NCBI RefSeq assembly: GCF_900105045.1
Contig: NZ_LT629739.1
Coordinates: forward strand, 868,001-932,000
Direction of reading: 5' to 3'
DNA: 64,000 nucleotides
Source: Brevibacterium picturae
GTDB taxonomy: Bacteria; Actinomycetota; Actinomycetes; Actinomycetales; Brevibacteriaceae
This document shows positions 15,742 to 24,917 of the stretch, one piece after another. Below the pieces are notes generated by a model. That model was given only the letters and a program-made list of their open reading frames with translations. It was not told where the DNA came from and ran no database searches. Positions within the stretch are counted from its first letter, which is position 1. Each line of letters begins with the position of its first letter. The position numbers were made by a program, and so were the translations under genes.

Positions 15742-15839
15742 GACCGGGTCTCGGTGCGGCCCGACTGGGTCTCGGTGCAGCTGCTATCCGTCTGCTCAGA
15801 GCAGAAATTCGCGCCATCGGCGGCGAATCCTCCTAGGAT
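15742..15839 (+). promoter_or_regulatory. Promoter region of the ClgR-like gene with repeats
   Basis: GACYGGGTCTCGGTGC occurs twice (15742-15757 and 15763-15778), 21 bp apart. An inverted repeat ATTCGC (15807-15812) / GCGAAT (15823-15828) lies just upstream of TAGGAT (15834-15839), which ends six bases before the ATG. This suggests a leaderless, autoregulated promoter. Confidence 0.45.
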
Positions 15840-15845
15840 CGCCTC

Positions 15846-16184
15846 ATGGAATCACTTCACGTCACGGGCGGACATGGCGATCGGGCCCCGGCGCTGCTGT
15901 GGCGCGAGATGCTCGGGCAGGTGCTGAGACTGCGCCGCACCGAGCTGGGGCTGACCCTGGCTCAGGTGTCTCGCCGTTCTGGAGTCTCGACCCAATACCT
16001 GTCCGAGGTCGAGCGCGGGCTCAAAGATCCATCATCGGAGGTCATCGAGGCGATCGCTGTTGTTCTCGGCCTCGCACTCCCCCAGGTGCTCGTCCTCGCC
16101 GCAGCCTCGACGCCGACCGCTGCGCCCGCGACGGCGCCCGCGTTCGGGCTCACCGGTCGGGCGCAGCTGTCGCTCGTGGCCTAG
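15846..16184 (+). CDS. ClgR/PopR-like XRE-family transcriptional activator
   Basis: 112 residues. The helix-turn-helix core MLGQVLRLRRTELGLTLAQ...SGVSTQYLSEVERGLKDPSSEVIEAI...LGLALPQVL is very close to actinobacterial ClgR, which activates clp genes and is itself degraded by Clp proteases. The C-terminus is Ala/Thr/Pro-rich and ends SLVA, compatible with a Clp-degradable tail. The clpP pair 2.5 kb away carries two ClgR-type boxes, making it the probable target. It could be the housekeeping ClgR or a paralogue like PopR. Confidence 0.8.
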   Translation: MESLHVTGGHGDRAPALLWREMLGQVLRLRRTELGLTLAQVSRRSGVSTQYLSEVERGLKDPSSEVIEAIAVVLGLALPQVLVLAAASTPTAAPATAPAFGLTGRAQLSLVA

Positions 16185-16608: not shown

Positions 16609-17283
16609 CTACTGCCCGTGCAGCCAACCTGGGGAGACAAGCCCGGACTCATAGGCGAGCACGACGAGGTGGACTCTGTCGCGAGCGGCGACCTTGCTCA
16701 TGATGCGCGAGACATGAGTCTTGGCCGTCAGCGGGGAGAGCACCAGCTTGGCTGCGATCTCATCGTTCGACAGCCCCTGACCGACGAGGGCGAGCACCTC
16801 ACGCTCACGTTGCGTCAGCACGTCGAGGTGCGTCGCCGGCTCGGCCCGCAGCCCCAGAGACATCCTCGCCAACAGGTACTTGGTCACCCCGGGCGAGAGC
16901 AGCGCCTCCCCTTCGGCGACGACGCGCACCGCTCGGATCAGGTCGACCGGTTCGGTGTCCTTGAGGAGGAATCCGCTGGCGCCTGCCCTGACCGCGCGCA
17001 CGATGTATTCGTCGAGGCCGAAGGTCGTCACCAGCACGACGCGCACGTTGTCGAGGCTGGAATCGGCGGCGATCTGCTCGGTGGCCCACAGTCCGTCACC
17101 GTCGGGCATCCTGATGTCCATGAGGACGACGTCGACCGGCGTCGCCGCCAGCTTCTCCAGCAGCTCTTCCCCGCCGGATGCCTGCACCCGCACGCCGATG
17201 TCCGGTTCCGCGTCGAGCAGCGAGGCGAAGCCGGCGCGGACAAGTTGGTGGTCATCGGCGATCGCCACCGAGATCTCGGTCAT
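16609..17283 (-). CDS. NarL/LuxR-family response regulator
   Basis: 224 residues. The receiver domain has the acidic pair in IADDHQLVR, the phospho-acceptor Asp in VVLMDIRMPDGDG, Thr in VLVTTF and Lys in GFLLKD. The C-terminal LuxR helix-turn-helix reads LTQREREVLALVGQGLSNDEIAAKLVLSPLTAKTHVSRIMSK. Its ATG overlaps the stop of the upstream kinase by four bases, so the pair is translationally coupled. Targets unknown; the adjacent SHOCT gene is a candidate. Confidence 0.92.
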   Translation of the reverse strand: MTEISVAIADDHQLVRAGFASLLDAEPDIGVRVQASGGEELLEKLAATPVDVVLMDIRMPDGDGLWATEQIAADSSLDNVRVVLVTTFGLDEYIVRAVRAGASGFLLKDTEPVDLIRAVRVVAEGEALLSPGVTKYLLARMSLGLRAEPATHLDVLTQREREVLALVGQGLSNDEIAAKLVLSPLTAKTHVSRIMSKVAARDRVHLVVLAYESGLVSPGWLHGQ

Positions 17284-18620
17284 GTCTGCGCCTCCGTGCC
17301 TGGTCGTCCATCGTTGCCTGCCCAGGGCAGCCTGACGCTGATGTGTGTGCCTTCTCCGCTCGCCGAGGTGATCGCGAAGGTTCCGTCGAGAAGTTTCGCT
17401 CTCTCCCGCATCCCGATGATGCCTGAGCCTTCGTCTCGCCCGTGCATCGCGTCCTCGGTTCCCTGGCCGTCGTCGCTGATCTCGATGCGCACGAATCCGT
17501 TCTCGCGGAAGATTGCGACCATCGCCGAGGCGGCGTGGGCGTGGCGGACCACGTTCGTCAGTGCCTCCTGCACGATCCGGTAGGCGGCCGCATCGGCGGC
17601 ACTGCCGGGAGTCGCTCGGGTACCGTCGGCTCGGAGTTCGCGCCGATCATCGAGGTCGAGGGCAGGTCGTGAAGGCATCGCGGCGATGAGAGCCGCCAGG
17701 TCATCGAGGCCCGGCACGGGAGCCAACGGTTCGGCTGTGCCGTCGACGGCGTCGGAGCGCATCGTGTGGAGCACTGAGCGGACCTCGTTGAGCCCGGTTC
17801 GGCTCAGCTCCTTGATGGCGGCGAGCGCGAGTCTGGCCTGTTCGGGGTCACGGTCGATGAGGTGTTCGCCCATGCCGGCCTGCACATTGATCTGGGACAG
17901 GGAATGGCCCAGCACGTCGTGGAGGTCGCGGGCGATGCGCAGCCGCTCGGCCGCGATCATCTCGAGATGTCGGGCCTGCGCCTCCTCCTCCGCGATCCTC
18001 CTGCCCTCGCGTCTGCTTCTCACGAAGGCGCCGATGCCCAGAGTGATGAGCAAACCGATCGTCGCCGAGGCCACGCGCCCCACCGACCATTCGACTCCGA
18101 GGAAAGGACCGAGCAGCAGGGCGCCCAACCAGACACCCGCCGCCGAGGCGATGGCCCAGATCTGGCGACCGCGGACCATGGCCACGACGAGAGCGAAGAG
18201 GAACGCCGCGTAGAACGGTGTCATCTCAGGCCCGGTGAGATCCTGCGCCCACATCCCACCCGGACCCTCCCCTGACCAGGGACGATTGCTTGGACCGTGG
18301 GCCCACGCAGCGGAAAGGCTGGATCTCGCCAGAGCGGCCCAGAAGACGATGTCGACCAACGTCAGTCCGGCGATGATCGCAACTCTCGGGCCCGGCCACC
18401 GCGCACACACCAGGAAGATCACCGGGGAGAGCAGAGCCACGGCAATGCGCACACCACCGACCAGGGCATCGGCACCATCGTGAGTGGCCATGAACACGGC
18501 GAAGGGCAGCTGCAGCAGCAGTGCCAGAACACTTAGGGCAATCAGGCGCAGTCGCAGTTGATGCGGGACACGACGATCGGGGTCGGTCGCCTCGGCGGGG
18601 TCACGCCTGGATCGGCTCAT
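17280..18620 (-). CDS. Two-component sensor histidine kinase (HisKA_3 type)
   Basis: About 446 residues. The N-terminal half holds five or six membrane spans (MASE/7TM-like, no large extracellular domain). The dimerisation motif ERLRIARDLHDVLGHSLSQINVQAGM carries the phospho-acceptor His. The C-terminal ATPase domain has QEALTNVVRHAHA, SDDGQG and GIIGMRERAKLLDG. This is the DesK/NarX-like class, cognate to the overlapping regulator. ATG 18620 is uncertain, since AGAGG is only two bases away; a downstream GTG is possible. Confidence 0.88.
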   Translation of the reverse strand: MSRSRRDPAEATDPDRRVPHQLRLRLIALSVLALLLQLPFAVFMATHDGADALVGGVRIAVALLSPVIFLVCARWPGPRVAIIAGLTLVDIVFWAALARSSLSAAWAHGPSNRPWSGEGPGGMWAQDLTGPEMTPFYAAFLFALVVAMVRGRQIWAIASAAGVWLGALLLGPFLGVEWSVGRVASATIGLLITLGIGAFVRSRREGRRIAEEEAQARHLEMIAAERLRIARDLHDVLGHSLSQINVQAGMGEHLIDRDPEQARLALAAIKELSRTGLNEVRSVLHTMRSDAVDGTAEPLAPVPGLDDLAALIAAMPSRPALDLDDRRELRADGTRATPGSAADAAAYRIVQEALTNVVRHAHAASAMVAIFRENGFVRIEISDDGQGTEDAMHGRDEGSGIIGMRERAKLLDGTFAITSASGEGTHISVRLPWAGNDGRPGTEAQT

Positions 18621-18722
18621 CCTCTGATCGTAGTCACCGGCCGAGGATTCGGCGTCGTACCACGGCAGTATTCGGCCAGACATCCTCCGGAGTACGGCGG
18701 CCCTGGAGTACCTCAGATCAGC

Positions 18723-19304
18723 TCAGAGGATCTGGTCGACGAGGCCGAAGTCTCGGGCCGCATTTGCATCCAGGACGAGGTCTCGGTCGAGGTCCGCATG
18801 GATCTGCTCCATGCTGCGCCCGGTTCCCTGCGCGAGCATCGCCTCGACCTCACGGCGCTGCCGGGCGATCTCGTCGGCGGCGACGATGAGGTCAGGGATG
18901 GCCCCGCGTGCGCCCTCGGCATGGGGTTGGCGCAGAACCGCTCGAGCGTGTTCGAGCATCGAGCGCTGACCGGGTTCCCCTGCTGCCAGGAGCACCGCAG
19001 CATCAGCTGCCGCCTGTCCCACGCAGATGGTCGCCACGGGTGCGCCGATATGGCGCATCGCGTCGTAGATGGCGGTCATGGCCGTCAGCGACCCGCCCGG
19101 TGAGTTGATGTACATCTGGATCGGGAGTTCGCGACTGCTGGCTTCGAGGTGGAGCAGCTGCGCAATGACCGTGTTGGCAACCCCGTCGTCGATCGGCACA
19201 CCCAGGTAGATGATGCGATTGCCCAGCAGGTGCGAATACACATCGACGATCTTCTCGTTGCTGCCCGAGCGGTCGACGACATTCGGAATCGTGTACTGGC
19301 TCAT
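18723..19304 (-). CDS. Catalytically dead ClpP paralogue (ClpR-like)
   Basis: 193 residues with the full ClpP fold (SHLLGNRIIYLGVPIDD, YINSPGGSLTAMTAIYD, RDFGLVDQIL). The active-site motifs are changed. The nucleophile motif GQAAS reads GQAAAD, so Ser is Ala100. The catalytic HQP reads RQP, so His is Arg125. The third Asp is kept (about 175). It cannot be a serine protease as read, and the sequence around these sites is in frame. Translationally coupled to the active clpP by an ATGA overlap, so mixed heptamers or a regulatory ring are likely. Chloroplast and cyanobacterial ClpR provide the precedent. Confidence 0.9.
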   Translation of the reverse strand: MSQYTIPNVVDRSGSNEKIVDVYSHLLGNRIIYLGVPIDDGVANTVIAQLLHLEASSRELPIQMYINSPGGSLTAMTAIYDAMRHIGAPVATICVGQAAADAAVLLAAGEPGQRSMLEHARAVLRQPHAEGARGAIPDLIVAADEIARQRREVEAMLAQGTGRSMEQIHADLDRDLVLDANAARDFGLVDQIL

Positions 19305-19957
19305 GGCGCCCCGATCCCGCCGCGCAGATCTGCCGGTGAGTCGACGATGCGATCGATGAGCCCGTAGTCCAGGGCCTGCTCGACCGTGAACCACCGATCG
19401 CGCAGGGAATCGCCGAATATTCGCTCATAGGTCTTCCCTGTCGCCTCGGCGATGCGGTGCAGGACCGAGTCCCTGACGCTGCGCAGGTCCCCTGACTGCA
19501 GCTCGATGTCGGCGGCGGCTCCCCCGATGCCCGATGACCCCTGGTGGAGGAGGATCCGGGCGTGGGGCAGGGCGAGCCGTTTGCCCGGCGTGCCCATCAT
19601 GAGCACGAACTGCCCCGCCGAGGCGGCCCACCCGAACGCCACCGTGACCACATCGTTGGGCAGAGTCTCGATCGTGTCGGCGATCGCGTGCATCATCGGC
19701 ACCGATCCGCCCGGTGAGTTGATCCAGAGGTGGATGTCGCTGTGCGGATCCTCGGCGGAGAGGAGGATGAGTCGGGAGATGATCTCCATGCCGTTCTCGT
19801 CGCGCAGCTCCCCGTTGAAGACGACCGAACGGTAGGCGTAGAGCATTCTCTGGGATTCGGGGATGGGGGTCGTCGGGGCGTCCTCGTTCTCGCCCCACCT
19901 CGGCGGGGGTGAGGTTGGCTGGCTGTGGGTACTGTGGGGTGCGAATCGTGTGTTCAT
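19301..19957 (-). CDS. clpP: ATP-dependent Clp protease proteolytic subunit (active)
   Basis: 218 residues with all three catalytic residues: Ser113 in FGWAASAGQF, His138 in RILLHQ and Asp187 in SLRDRWF, plus the INSPGGSV handle. The N-terminal 35 residues are an extra Pro/Ser/Thr-rich tail beyond a normal ClpP and may be a propeptide or use a later start (Met38). GGAGG lies only one base before ATG 19957. First gene of a two-gene operon with an inactive paralogue, behind two ClgR-type boxes. Confidence 0.92.
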   Translation of the reverse strand: MNTRFAPHSTHSQPTSPPPRWGENEDAPTTPIPESQRMLYAYRSVVFNGELRDENGMEIISRLILLSAEDPHSDIHLWINSPGGSVPMMHAIADTIETLPNDVVTVAFGWAASAGQFVLMMGTPGKRLALPHARILLHQGSSGIGGAAADIELQSGDLRSVRDSVLHRIAEATGKTYERIFGDSLRDRWFTVEQALDYGLIDRIVDSPADLRGGIGAP

Positions 19958-20000
19958 GCCTCCACTGTGTCGCTCACCTCACCGCCCGGGAAGGTGTTTC

Positions 20001-20031
20001 CGCCCTGAGCGGGAGGGTGCCGCTGTGAGCG
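20001..20031 (-). promoter_or_regulatory. Two ClgR-type operator boxes
   Basis: On the minus strand CGCTCAGGGCG (20011-20001) and CGCTCACAGCG (20031-20021) both fit the ClgR core CGCYNANRGCG. They sit exactly 20 bp (two helical turns) apart, 43-74 bp upstream of clpP. This fits activation by the ClgR-like protein encoded at 15846. Confidence 0.7.
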
Positions 20032-20121
20032 GACGACGAACCTGTACCCACGGTGCCGTGGCCCCGCCGTGATAAAATCGGGCGAGGACTTGAGACTATT
20101 TCAATGAAGGGCCGAGACGGA

Positions 20122-20427: not shown

Positions 20428-20610
20428 ACGACGACCTCTCCGTGCCCTGAAGCACGATCACTGACGCCACTCCTGTCTGATTCTTTTGTGGAGCCTGCCT
20501 GTGGTGTCGTCCTGCGTCGTTGAGTCACTGAACACCCATGACGACATCACCACTGCTGCCCATCGATGCATGGCCGAGTTGCCTGCATCGGCAGCACCCA
20601 GGAGGGCACC

Positions 20611-21438
20611 ATGAACATCTACGAATTTCCACCCATCGAACTGCTCGTCAACGCCGCCTATTGGGTCGTCACCTGGCTGACGGCTCTGCTCGAACCGGTG
20701 GCCGGCAGCGCAAGTGCCGCACTGGCCATCGTGGTGCTGACGATCATTGTCCGCGCCGTCCTCATCCCCGTCGGCCTGTCCCAGGTCAGAGCCGGAATCA
20801 CCCGCAAACGACTGGCTCCGAAGATCACCGAGCTGCAGACCCGGCACAAAAAGAATCCTGAACTCATGCAGCAGAAGATCATGGAACTCTACAAGGAGGA
20901 GAAGGCCTCCCCGATGGCCGGCTGCCTGCCCGTCCTGGCACAGATGCCGGTGCTCATGGCCGTCTACGGGATCTTCATCCAATCCACGATCGGCGGGCAT
21001 GCCAACGACCTGCTCAATCATTCTCTGCTGGGCATCCCCCTCAACGCCGGTTTCGTCGGTCTCCTGACCGGCGGGAACCTGAGCGTGGTCTCGGCCGCGG
21101 TCTTCGCCGTCATCGTGATCATCATCGCCGTCGTCGCCGCCCTGTCGCGGCATCTGCTCACACCCGATATGCCGCAGACGCCGCCTGCCCCGACGTCCGG
21201 CAGCCAGAGCTCCGGCAGCGACAAACCCGCTATGCCGGACCTGACAGCTGTGACCAAGGTCTTAAGCTTCATGCCATTCATGACCGCCGTCATCGCACTG
21301 TTCGTGCCATTGGCGGCCACGCTCTACCTGATGACGACGACGGCCTGGACCTTGGGAGAGCGCCTCGTGCTCAATCGTGCTCTCAAGGTCAATGTGAAGG
21401 ACGACGATCAGCGGGAGCGACAGGGCTCTGCTGCCTGA
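20611..21438 (+). CDS. YidC/Oxa1-family membrane protein insertase
   Basis: 275 residues, the short Gram-positive form. It has five membrane spans (about 20-45, 100-125, 140-165, 170-190 and 225-250), the cytoplasmic hairpin VRAGITRKRLAPKITELQTRHKK...QQKIMELYKEEKASPMAGCLPVLAQMPVLMAVYG, and the groove arginine in IIVRAVLIP. GGAGGG precedes ATG 20611. It is probably a secondary YidC, because it lies outside the rnpA-yidC-jag locus. A Pro/Ser-rich loop (about 190-215) is family-typical. Confidence 0.9.
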   Translation: MNIYEFPPIELLVNAAYWVVTWLTALLEPVAGSASAALAIVVLTIIVRAVLIPVGLSQVRAGITRKRLAPKITELQTRHKKNPELMQQKIMELYKEEKASPMAGCLPVLAQMPVLMAVYGIFIQSTIGGHANDLLNHSLLGIPLNAGFVGLLTGGNLSVVSAAVFAVIVIIIAVVAALSRHLLTPDMPQTPPAPTSGSQSSGSDKPAMPDLTAVTKVLSFMPFMTAVIALFVPLAATLYLMTTTAWTLGERLVLNRALKVNVKDDDQRERQGSAA

Positions 21439-22232: not shown

Positions 22233-24827
22233 TCAGGCTGCCACGGGCACCTCGGGAGTTCCCGCGATCACACGCAGCATTCCATCAACGACGGTGGCAC
22301 TGACGGATCCGCCCTCGGACACGGCCTCATTGACGAGGAGGTCCGAGATGCGGTCGTCGAGCTCACGCTGGATCACGCGTCGCAGCGGACGGGCACCGAA
22401 CTCCGGTTCGTACCCGGCGTCGGAGAGGAATTCCACGGCGTCCTCGGACACGCTCAGGCCGATGCCCTGGTGCGCCAGACGCTGCACCGACTCTTCCAGC
22501 TGGAGGCGCACGATGACACGCAGCTGCTCACGGTCGAGCCGCGAGAACATCACGGTCTCGTCGATCCGGTTGAGGAACTCGGGACGCATGACCTCCTTGA
22601 GCTTGCCCATCACCTTCGCGCTCAGGTCCTTCTCGGTGACCTTCGCGTCGGTGGAGCTGAAGCCCAACGGAGTGCTGCCAGCCATGAATTCGGATCCGAG
22701 GTTGCTCGTCATGATGATGACGGTGTTCCGGAAGTCCACGGTCCTGCCCTGTCCGTCGGTCAGGCGACCGTCGTCGAGGACCTGGAGCAGCAGGTTGAAT
22801 GCGTCAGGGTGGGCCTTCTCGACCTCGTCGAGAAGGATCACCGAGTACGGCCGCCGCCGGACCTGCTCGGTGAGCTGGCCGGCTTCGTCGTAGCCGACGT
22901 AGCCGGGAGGCGAACCCACCAGACGGGACACGGTGTGACGCTCGCCGAATTCGCTCATGTCGAACCGGATCATCGCCGACTCGTCATCGAACAGGGTCGC
23001 AGCCAGAGACTTGGCCAACTCAGTCTTGCCCACGCCCGTGGGGCCGAGGAAGAGGAAGCTGCCGATGGGACGATTCGGATCTCCCATTCCCATCTGCGAC
23101 CGGCGCACGGCCTTCGACACTGCGCCCACCGCATCGTCCTGGCCGATGACTCGACCGTGGAGGACCTCTTCGAGCCTGGCCAGCTTGGCCTTCTGGCCCT
23201 GAGTCATGCTCGCCGCCGGGATTCCGGTGGCACGGGACACGACCTGTGCGATCTGATCGGCATCGACGACGCTGGACACAGCGTCCTTACCCTGACCGAC
23301 ACTGTTCTGACCGTTGCCGTTCGGACCGGCGCTGTGGTCAATCGCGGTCTCGTCCGGGTTCTCAGCCGCCTGTAGCTTCTCGCCCAGGTCCATGACCTCG
23401 TCGCGGAGCTGACCGGCACGCTCATAGTTCTCTTCGCTGATGGCGGTCGACTTCTCGGTTTCGAGCCGTTCGATCTCCGCCCGCAGAGCTTGGGGATTGA
23501 CCTTGGGCCCACGACGCAAAGACAGACGGGCACCCGCCTGGTCGATGAGGTCGATCGCCTTGTCCGGCAGGAACCTGTCGTTGATGTAGCGATCCGAGAG
23601 CTCGACCGAGGCGCGTATCGCCTCCGGCGTGAAGGTCACGTTGTGGTGCTCGGCGTAGCGGTCCTTGAGTCCGTCGAGGATCGCCACAGCATCCTCGATG
23701 TTCGGTTCCCCGACGCGCACCGGCTGGAACCGACGTTCGAGGGCTGAATCCTTCTCGATCGTGCGGTATTCCTTCAGGGTGGTCGCGCCGAGCAGGTGGA
23801 GGTCTCCCCGAGCCAGCCTGGGCTTGAGGATGTTGCCGGCGTCCATCGAGTTGGATTCGCCGTTGCCGCCCGCACCGACGAGGGTGTGGAGCTCATCGAC
23901 GAAGACGATCATCTCGCCGTCCTCGGCGATCTCGTCGAGTGCTCCGGTCAGGCGCTCCTCGAAGTCACCGCGGTAGCGTGTGCCCGCAAGCATTCCCGGC
24001 AGGTCGAGTGCGATGACTCGTTTGCCGGACAGCTGCGCCGGGATCTCGCCGGTGTGGATGGCCTGAGCCAAGCCTTCGGCGATCGCGGTCTTGCCGACGC
24101 CTGCCTCGCCGAGGAGCACCGGGTTGTTCTTGGTGCGGCGGGCGAGGATCTCGATGGTCTCCTCGATCTCCTGCCCACGTCCGATCACCGGATCGAGTTC
24201 GCCGTCGGCTGCCAGTGCCGTGAGGTCCGTGGAGAACCTCTCGAGCATGGTCTCCTCCGACTGGCCCGCTCCGTGGCCCCCCTGGGCTTCGCCGGCTTCA
24301 GCGGCTTCCGCACCGGCCTGCAGCCGCTCCTGCGTGACGCCCGCTTGGGCGAGGATGCGGCCGGCAGGCATCTCATGGTTGAGCACGAACGCGAAGAACA
24401 GGTGCTCCGGGTCGACGTAGGTCGAGCCGAATGCCCGCGCCACCTGGTAGGCGTCGAGGAGCGCACGCTGTCCGGATCCGGTCAGCGTCAGTGCCCCTTC
24501 GGGCTTCGTGCTCGAGGATGCGGGCAGGCGCTCTTCAACGGCGTGTGCGACCTGCTCCGGGTCCGCGCCCGCCTGGCGGATCGCGGAAACTCCGGGTTCG
24601 GTCTCTGCCATGGTGCGCAGGATGTGCAGGGCGTCGACCTCCGACTGACCGTGCTCTCTGGCATAGTCGGCGGCGTTGTCGATGACCTCGTGACTGCGCT
24701 TGCTCAGCAGCTTGTTGATGTCGACGCTGCGCCCCTGTCGGGCGCCCTGCTGTCCCTGCAGAAAACGGGCAAGGAATTCGTCGAATGAATCTCCGCCAGA
24801 ACCGGCGGATCCGTAGAACGTAGCCAA
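22233..24827 (-). CDS. ClpC-type AAA+ unfoldase (Clp protease ATPase subunit)
   Basis: About 864 residues. The N-terminal repeat domain is divergent ([22 protein letters not shown]...). D1 has Walker [11 protein letters not shown] and Walker B VFVDELH. A short UVR-like middle segment, [20 protein letters not shown], indicates ClpC rather than ClpB. D2 has [19 protein letters not shown] and the arginine-finger region. It starts at TTG 24827 with AGGAG six to seven bases upstream; the extension [22 protein letters not shown] is unlike the usual MFERFTDRARR start. A HAIR element at 24847-24865 suggests HspR control. Likely partner of the clpP pair. Confidence 0.9.
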
Positions 24828-24846
24828 TCTGATCTCCTGTCGAAAG

Positions 24847-24865
24847 TTGAGCCTATACGACTCAA
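24847..24865 (-). promoter_or_regulatory. HAIR-like operator (HspR)
   Basis: The minus strand reads TTGAGT-N7-GCTCAA, matching 11 of 14 positions of the HAIR consensus CTTGAGT-N7-ACTCAAG, 20 bp upstream of the clpC start codon. Heat-shock repression by HspR is expected. Confidence 0.65.
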
Positions 24866-24917
24866 TCAACGACGAAGGCGGTGGTCTTATTCCCGAGGGA
24901 ACCTCTCGACTTCCCGA

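Follow-up and report, generated by a model that had tools for sequence, protein, structure and literature searches.

An accessory clpP pair of Brevibacterium picturae with a probable non-catalytic second subunit, and one-sided loss of the active site among its relatives

The window analysed here is a stretch of 64,000 nucleotides of the Brevibacterium picturae genome (contig NZ_LT629739.1, positions 868,001 to 932,000; positions below are counted from its first letter). Two overlapping clpP genes lie on its reverse strand:

19301..19957, reverse strand: clpP3-like gene, 218 aa (P0002), triad Ser113/His138/Asp187 intact; PF00574, 179.6 bits
18723..19304, reverse strand: clpP4-like gene, 193 aa (P0001), with Ala100/Arg125/Asp175; PF00574, 200.6 bits
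19301..19304, reverse strand: ATGA overlap of the clpP3 stop and the clpP4 start, suggesting translational coupling
19005..19007, reverse strand: Ala100 codon of clpP4, at the position of the nucleophilic Ser
18930..18932, reverse strand: Arg125 codon of clpP4, at the position of the catalytic His

Translation of the open reading frames, alignment, the PF00574 profile and a structural model agree with the first-pass annotation that the second clpP carries Ala for the nucleophilic Ser and Arg for the catalytic His, with the fold kept. In ClpP4, the aligned triad positions lie in the contexts VGQAA[A100]DAAV, AVL[R125]QPHA and LDR[D175]LVLD; the protein matches the PF00574 family profile and has Ala, Arg and Asp where the Ser-His-Asp triad would stand. 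Its predicted structure is a confident ClpP fold (mean pLDDT 89.7), and the first PDB match of the model is M. tuberculosis ClpP1P2 (6iw7_E, TM 0.91). ClpP3, for which the best PDB matches are ClpP1-type chains, was said to retain Ser113, His138 and Asp187, and all three are read in the translated frame (FGWAA[S113]AGQF, ILL[H138]QG and LR[D187]RWF). The two genes are indeed joined by ATGA at 19304-19301, and among the matches listed 67 of the 77 named loci with both genes have such a four-base overlap (ATGA in 56, GTGA in 11). That equal amounts of ClpP3 and ClpP4 should be made, as had also been proposed, does not follow from the gene overlap.

It had been asked whether the genome holds another clpP1P2 pair. 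One is found elsewhere, of the ordinary kind and with intact triads, and PF00574 returns four genes in total, in two pairs. Given this separate, normal pair, the clpP3-clpP4 pair is of the accessory type known from Streptomyces. The accessory clpP operon, its regulator PopR, and asymmetric Clp cores are already known. No statement that ClpP4 lacks catalytic residues was found in the open-access full texts searched; the original clpP3P4 papers lie outside that scope and may mention it.

Among the matches listed, the nearest named loci are those of Brevibacterium antiquum, B. sp. RIT 803 and B. aurantiacum, with second subunits 94-97% identical to that of the window. An unbroken clpP4-type second subunit is present in 32 of the 57 Brevibacterium genomes searched, with the state Ala-Arg-Asp in 31 of them and Ala-His-Asp in the remaining one (G010, a more distant pair). 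The first-pass annotation had named Ser and His in a resequenced allele as a refutation; all 30 same-genus loci (L085-L114, the window itself being represented by L085) show Ala/Arg/Asp. Sequencing error is ruled out by the reading of these residues in many independent genomes. In a set of 19 Brevibacterium sequences (the window and L005-L022), Ala100 is encoded by GCC (9), GCT (6) or GCG (4), and Arg125 by CGC (11), CGT (4), CGA (3) or CGG (1); with three Ala codons and four Arg codons in use, the dead residues persist under DNA drift. Over the 19 Brevibacterium pairs, median dN/dS comes to 0.108 for the dead ClpP4 and 0.213 for the active ClpP3, while seven housekeeping pairs give 0.066 for ClpP2 and 0.129 for ClpP1. 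The dead ClpP4 is under purifying selection.

Two observations bear on the history of the module in the genus. Broken clpP3P4 remnants in genomes G008 (L157) and G049 (L158) suggest module loss within Brevibacterium. Furthermore, the divergent pair of G010 (L156; 58% identity, Ala-His-Asp) sits in the tree with rows of other families, and may represent a horizontal replacement.

To place the pair in its phylum, second and first subunits were gathered from named loci (the best 80 of 338 relatives) and same-genus loci, with further rows from the best matches in 396 genomes sampled across the phylum and from protein searches (the best 120 of 7523 with query P0001, of 7985 with a Streptomyces-type second subunit, and of 7882 with query P0002). 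Every one of these lists was ranked by similarity to its query (P0001 for the two locus searches), and members that are intact or distant may therefore be under-represented. A tree was built with FastTree from 346 rows, reduced to 230 at 93% identity; it left out L002, the window copies L003, L004 and L085, the same-genus loci L086-L113, the incomplete proteins P0044 and P0046, and L115-L117, L119, L120, L157, L158 and L161. Second and first subunits separate with a local support of 100, at a point where the program warns of long branches meeting, and the second subunits group toward the housekeeping ClpP2-type rows. Set aside from the tally were the basal row L068, 17 rows of second type that fall outside the clade (among them L077, from a Frankiaceae pair whose triad is intact), and the first rows of L068 and L077, both intact. 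The named loci represent Nocardioides, Jiangella, Cellulomonas, Brachybacterium and Acidimicrobiales, among other groups, and the named protein rows of the second subunit include Mycobacterium, Nocardia, Kribbella and Actinomycetospora.

Among the matches listed, Ser or His is gone in 103 of the 120 distinct second subunits. Of these 120 listed proteins, 84 have lost the nucleophile, 19 lack His but retain Ser, 12 differ in Asp only, and five have an intact triad (L038 of Serinicoccus, L063 of Cellulomonas, L130, P0063 and P0077); with the basal Streptomonospora row L068, in which the triad is intact, the last figure becomes 6 of 121 among those listed. At the Ser position the 120 listed proteins have Ala (63), Ser (36), Gly (9), Trp (6), Glu (3), Pro (2) or Phe (1), and at the His position His (68), Arg (21), Gln (9), Gly (8), Thr (5), Asp (4), Ala (2), Ser (2) or Glu (1). 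The Asp position is altered in 33 of the 120 listed, a change that need not by itself abolish activity, as Listeria ClpP1 is reported to have Asn for Asp and to be active in its complex (PMC9765437). The first-subunit partners, on the other hand, have an intact triad in all 86 distinct rows among the matches listed. A separate search centred on P0002 (best 120 of 7882) finds the partner intact in 116 of 119 rows; of the remaining three entries, two are truncated and one is frame-shifted. When the search is centred instead on the Streptomyces second subunit (query of genus code g9, for which the rows bearing an organism name are all Streptomyces; best 120 of 7985, the fused P0123 left out), His is missing in 119 of 119 rows, with Ser-Gly-Asp in 113, Ser-Gly-Glu in five and Ser-Ala-Asp in one. 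As controls, the triad is intact in all 17 second-type rows outside the clade and in 39 of 40 further ClpP2-like sequences, hand-picked by sequence, without regard to gene context, from lower-scoring matches in the 396-genome sample.

On a 138-row tree made without the triad columns, the Ser-plus-His state requires at least 12 changes by parsimony, or 21 losses if loss is irreversible; these counts are approximate, because parsimony treats loss and regain alike and the rows were chosen by their closeness to dead sequences. Within this sample, catalytic loss in the second subunit recurs by many different substitutions and always on the same side. The first-pass annotation had thought a mixed complex of an active and a dead ClpP in an actinobacterium worth describing. 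The pairing of the two genes stands, beside a separate clpP1P2, but it is no singular case, the pair being an accessory clpP3-clpP4-popR module in which the loss recurs in many of the families sampled. What is probably new is that the second subunit of the module appears to be a pseudo-protease in most relatives sampled, reached by many routes.

A few individual rows deserve mention. Those with an intact triad inside the degenerate clade are L130, L038, L047, L051, L063, P0063 and P0077. Genome G238 (genus code g9) encodes a third ClpP2-like protein (L213:3397-4584) that retains Ser and Asp but has Arg in place of His, and no ClpP1-type partner or PopR-like gene was found within the 7.5 kb examined around it; this is perhaps a second kind of dead ClpP. 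Two ClpP domains share one open reading frame in P0123 and P0044 (331 and 337 aa), which are likely assembly or frameshift fusions, a natural fusion being possible. Finally, P0255, labelled Bacillus subtilis, is 82% identical to Brevibacterium ClpP3 and probably stems from a mislabelled or contaminated record.

The window also carries a gene and sites that resemble the Streptomyces PopR system:

15846..16184, forward strand: popR-like gene, 112 aa, with an XRE-type HTH and ending ...SLVA; ClgR is the best NCBIfam model, with 66 bits against a cut-off of 170
19999..20033, reverse strand: double PopR-type operator upstream of clpP3, its two dyads repeating every 20 bases, from an alignment of 19 Brevibacterium upstream regions
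15791..15805, forward strand: perfect PopR-type dyad TCTGCTCAGAGCAGA, about 40 bases 5' of popR, suggesting auto-regulation

A pattern written from the Brevibacterium alignment fits only 19999-20033 in the 64 kb (0.00 expected), a unique fit that is no independent test since the pattern derives from the same alignment. When the 450 bases preceding each accessory pair's domain start were scanned, the core dyad was present 5' of 86 of 97 pairs (double in 47), many of those in other genera at a period of 15, compared with 13.5% of 1940 random windows from the same loci. None of eight housekeeping clpP loci gave a match (0/8; seven distinct, all Brevibacterium). All 18 named Brevibacterium loci have a dyad before popR; counting every locus, the figure is 44 of 96, versus 7.7% of control windows. 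Of 98 accessory loci, 97 have a PopR-like gene that converges with the gene of the second subunit, and in 88 of them the two lie within 600 bases of each other; the single locus lacking one (L049) is a short locus. In the named Brevibacterium loci popR stands some 2.5 kb from clpP4 in nine of 18, and within 600 bases in the other nine. In the window, the interval between clpP4 and popR (16609-18683) holds a LuxR-type response regulator and a HisKA_3 sensor kinase as a pair. A C-terminal Ala-Ala or Val-Ala terminates 94 of 97 PopR-like proteins, compared with 3.9% of 6958 open reading frames, and the ...SLVA end is probably an ssrA-like degron.

In Streptomyces, PopR is reported to activate clpP3P4 and to be degraded by ClpP1P2 (PMC9765437, PMC12607617, PMC9775585), its published site being TCTGCC-N3-GGCGAATCTGCC-N3-GGCAGA (PMC9775585), and S. 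lividans is described as expressing clpP3P4 only on failure of ClpP1P2 (PMC9765437). By analogy, the same circuit may operate in Brevibacterium.

A possible ATPase for the core is encoded nearby:

22233..24869, reverse strand: ClpC-type ATPase, 878 aa, with a UVR motif and a PLGF loop of the ClpP-docking kind; candidate partner

The name ClpB was rejected for this protein, which scores 929 bits against a ClpB cut-off of 1232 and has both the PLGF loop and the UVR motif, hence its designation as ClpC-type. Further ATPases of the genome are an LGF-loop protein, ClpX, and one that lacks such a loop in the part examined; the first is taken as ClpC1 and the last as ClpB. Orthologues of the ClpC-like protein (at least 62%) occur in 47 of the 57 Brevibacterium genomes, with one internal stop in G006 and in G021, and G054 adds a two-piece copy. 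They are found in 31 of the 32 genomes with the clpP3P4 pair and in 17 of the 25 without it. Because 17 of the 48 genomes with the ClpC-like gene lack the pair, the idea of a strict link between the two was rejected, and the protein is best regarded as a possible partner of ClpP3P4, neither obligate nor dedicated. A window scan for a 15-base dyad with at most one mismatch gave no PopR-type dyad before this gene, so that co-regulation of the ATPase is not claimed. A gene for a YidC/60KD_IMP-family membrane protein (20566-21438) adjoins the module.

Docking positions, numbered as in mature E. coli ClpP, were placed by distance from the triad, with Tyr75 and Tyr95 of M. tuberculosis ClpP2 taken as the equivalents of Tyr62 and Phe82. 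Among the matches listed, the position of Y62 is Tyr in 120 of 120 second subunits versus 25 of 86 first subunits, and that of F82 is aromatic in 98 of 120 versus 0 of 86; in the other 22 listed second subunits, the ClpP4 of the window included, it is His. The window copy keeps the N-loop Pro7 and the pocket Tyr65, the next pocket position being this His. The N-loop Pro is present in 120 of 120 listed second versus 30 of 86 listed first subunits, a comparison that gaps make loose, and the presumed inter-ring Arg170 in 118 of the 120 second subunits listed. At other positions it is the first subunits that hold the hydrophobic residues: among the matches listed, I90 is replaced by Thr in 78 of 120 second subunits, while V, L or I stands there in 85 of 86 first subunits, and at F112 the listed second subunits have Ser, Ala or Thr in 92 of 120 and Phe in nine, against F, Y, L, V or M in 82 of the 86 listed first subunits. 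Since housekeeping ClpP1 of Brevibacterium also has Tyr62 (four of four rows) and Tyr82 (three of four), these residues alone are no marker of the docking ring. The picture given by the docking residues is mixed, leaning toward the ClpP4 side.

In M. tuberculosis, ClpX and ClpC1 are reported to require the ClpP2 face only, and mutation of Y75 and Y95 in ClpP2 to block both ATPases (PMC4416901). Streptomyces ClpP2 is likewise described as recruiting the ATPases, its own Ser being dispensable and a swap to Ala keeping activity (PMC9765437, PMC12607617). The dead subunits of the accessory module look like a fixed version of this laboratory-proven state. ClpP3P4 is reported to be ADEP-insensitive (PMC12607617), with which the altered pocket of ClpP4 could be compatible.

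We consider it probable that the pair is the Brevibacterium form of the clpP3-clpP4-popR module and encodes an emergency Clp core with ClpP4 as a non-catalytic docking subunit and ClpP3 as the sole peptidase. From the sequences we infer that ClpP4 lacks activity and forms the docking side, and a mixed complex of ClpP3 and ClpP4 is the most economical reading. ClpP4 would fold as a ClpP that cannot cut, its ring or ring positions serving as the docking site for a Clp ATPase, be it ClpX, ClpC1 or the ClpC-like protein whose gene lies 2.3 kb away, and unfolded substrate would be handed from the ClpP4 side to the ClpP3 side, where all peptide cleavage would take place. A working ClpP1P2 would destroy PopR via its C-terminal Val-Ala; on failure of ClpP1P2, PopR would accumulate and bind both the double operator of clpP3 and the single operator of popR, and the spare core would be made. 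A catalytic ClpP3 ring would be stacked on a ClpP4 docking ring, separate rings being proposed because other two-isoform cores form them. A result from S. cattleya counts against the inertness of ClpP4: 'ClpP4' and 'ClpP5', each with ClpX in E. coli, are reported to have shortened the half-life of RelB (PMC4989188), though the genes are named differently in that study and the E. coli host possesses a ClpP as well.

Other arrangements of the two proteins have to be weighed against stacked rings. ClpP3 and ClpP4 could share each ring, the dead subunits diluting the active sites in the alternating manner of the cyanobacterial ClpP3/R core, for which mixed 3:4 rings are reported in Synechococcus (PMC4673316); pocket residues are partly kept in both proteins, as if the pockets sat between unlike neighbours. 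We regard this as rather unlikely, given that other two-isoform bacterial cores are reported as separate homo-heptameric rings (PMC9753991, PMC4673316, PMC8182300). ClpP4 might otherwise act mainly apart from ClpP3, as a poison or adaptor that enters the housekeeping ClpP1P2 core or captures ClpX or ClpC, damping or redirecting it. Its retention of some docking residues would suit such a role, and a precedent exists in the S. hawaiiensis ClpP-ADEP, said to disrupt ClpP1 complexes and to pair with ClpP2 (PMC12607617). Against this stand the conserved coupling to an intact ClpP3, seen in the four-base overlaps of the listed loci, and the reported viability of S. lividans with either clpP1P2 or clpP3P4 (PMC9765437), which implies that clpP3P4 gives a working protease by itself; a poison or adaptor is accordingly quite unlikely.

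As to how ClpP4 reached its present state, two accounts appear very improbable. One is relaxed decay, with ClpP4 on its way to becoming a pseudogene, which the two broken remnants and the variety of substitutions at the triad positions would fit. Pseudogene decay was rejected on the dN/dS of ClpP4, which lies below that of the active partner, and the unbroken second subunit in more than half of the Brevibacterium genomes, together with the fixation of the dead residues despite synonymous change, argues the same way. The other account, transfer of a true cyanobacterial or plastid-type ClpR gene, has in its favour the identical end state of lost catalytic residues and a kept fold. The second subunits group, however, with the actinobacterial ClpP2-type rows, in a tree built without ClpR rows, and the best PDB matches by sequence and fold are ordinary ClpP proteins of Streptomyces, Thermus, M. 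tuberculosis and Staphylococcus. Of the likeness to ClpR drawn by the first-pass annotation, the functional comparison is retained; in this tree the dead subunit falls with actinobacterial ClpP2.

Returning to ClpP4 as the docking half of an emergency core, we tentatively extend the proposal to the phylum, with a likelihood somewhat short of even: the emergency core of the Actinomycetota may have become one-engined by selection. After duplication of clpP1P2, the docking subunit would have been stripped of its active site repeatedly (at least 12 Ser/His changes) and its partner not, half the active sites making a better backup under ClpP1P2 inhibition, for example through fewer targets for covalent inhibitors or slower or reshaped degradation, and Streptomyces ClpP4 would be a pseudo-protease too. 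If this is true, a protein so far described as half of a second peptidase has to be seen differently, and the Streptomyces backup protease, which is relevant to resistance against ClpP-targeting antibiotics, needs a new understanding. The question touched upon is why bacteria build Clp cores from two ClpP isoforms. Evolution has apparently repeated a separation-of-function experiment here, deleting catalysis on one side and, within the sample, never on the other. The division of labour is testable through natural pairs in which the second subunit is Ala-Arg-Asp, Ser-Gly-Asp, Trp-His-Asp or, in a few cases, intact.

The closest known system is the clpP3-clpP4-popR module of Streptomyces, which is likewise described as a two-gene accessory clpP operon beside clpP1P2 (PMC9765437, PMC12607617, PMC9775585), with a PopR-type regulator that has an Ala-Ala end and with published TCTGCC-N3-GGCAGA operators. 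Streptomyces ClpP4 also misses the His in every row listed; Brevibacterium ClpP4 has lost both Ser and His. The dyads are spaced by 20 bases in Brevibacterium and by 15 in the published Streptomyces site, and the window differs further in that popR lies 2.5 kb off, with a two-component pair in between. The housekeeping ClpP1P2 of M. tuberculosis and Streptomyces are the likely parent paralogues, ClpP3 being ClpP1-like and ClpP4 ClpP2-like. They are alike in asymmetry, with ATPases docking on the ClpP2 ring, but both ClpP1 and ClpP2 have triads, which ClpP4 does not.

Two other systems combine unlike ClpP subunits. Listeria ClpP1P2 resembles the present pair in having two ClpPs of which one has an altered triad (PMC9765437); there ClpP1 is reported to have Asn for Asp and to work in the complex, whereas in Brevibacterium ClpP4 both nucleophile and base are gone. 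The cyanobacterial ClpP3/ClpR and plastid ClpP/ClpR cores combine active and dead ClpP homologues, as the Brevibacterium core would. A separate origin of ClpR and ClpP4 is suggested by the position of ClpP4 in the tree (one without ClpR rows), and the dead positions differ between the lineages.
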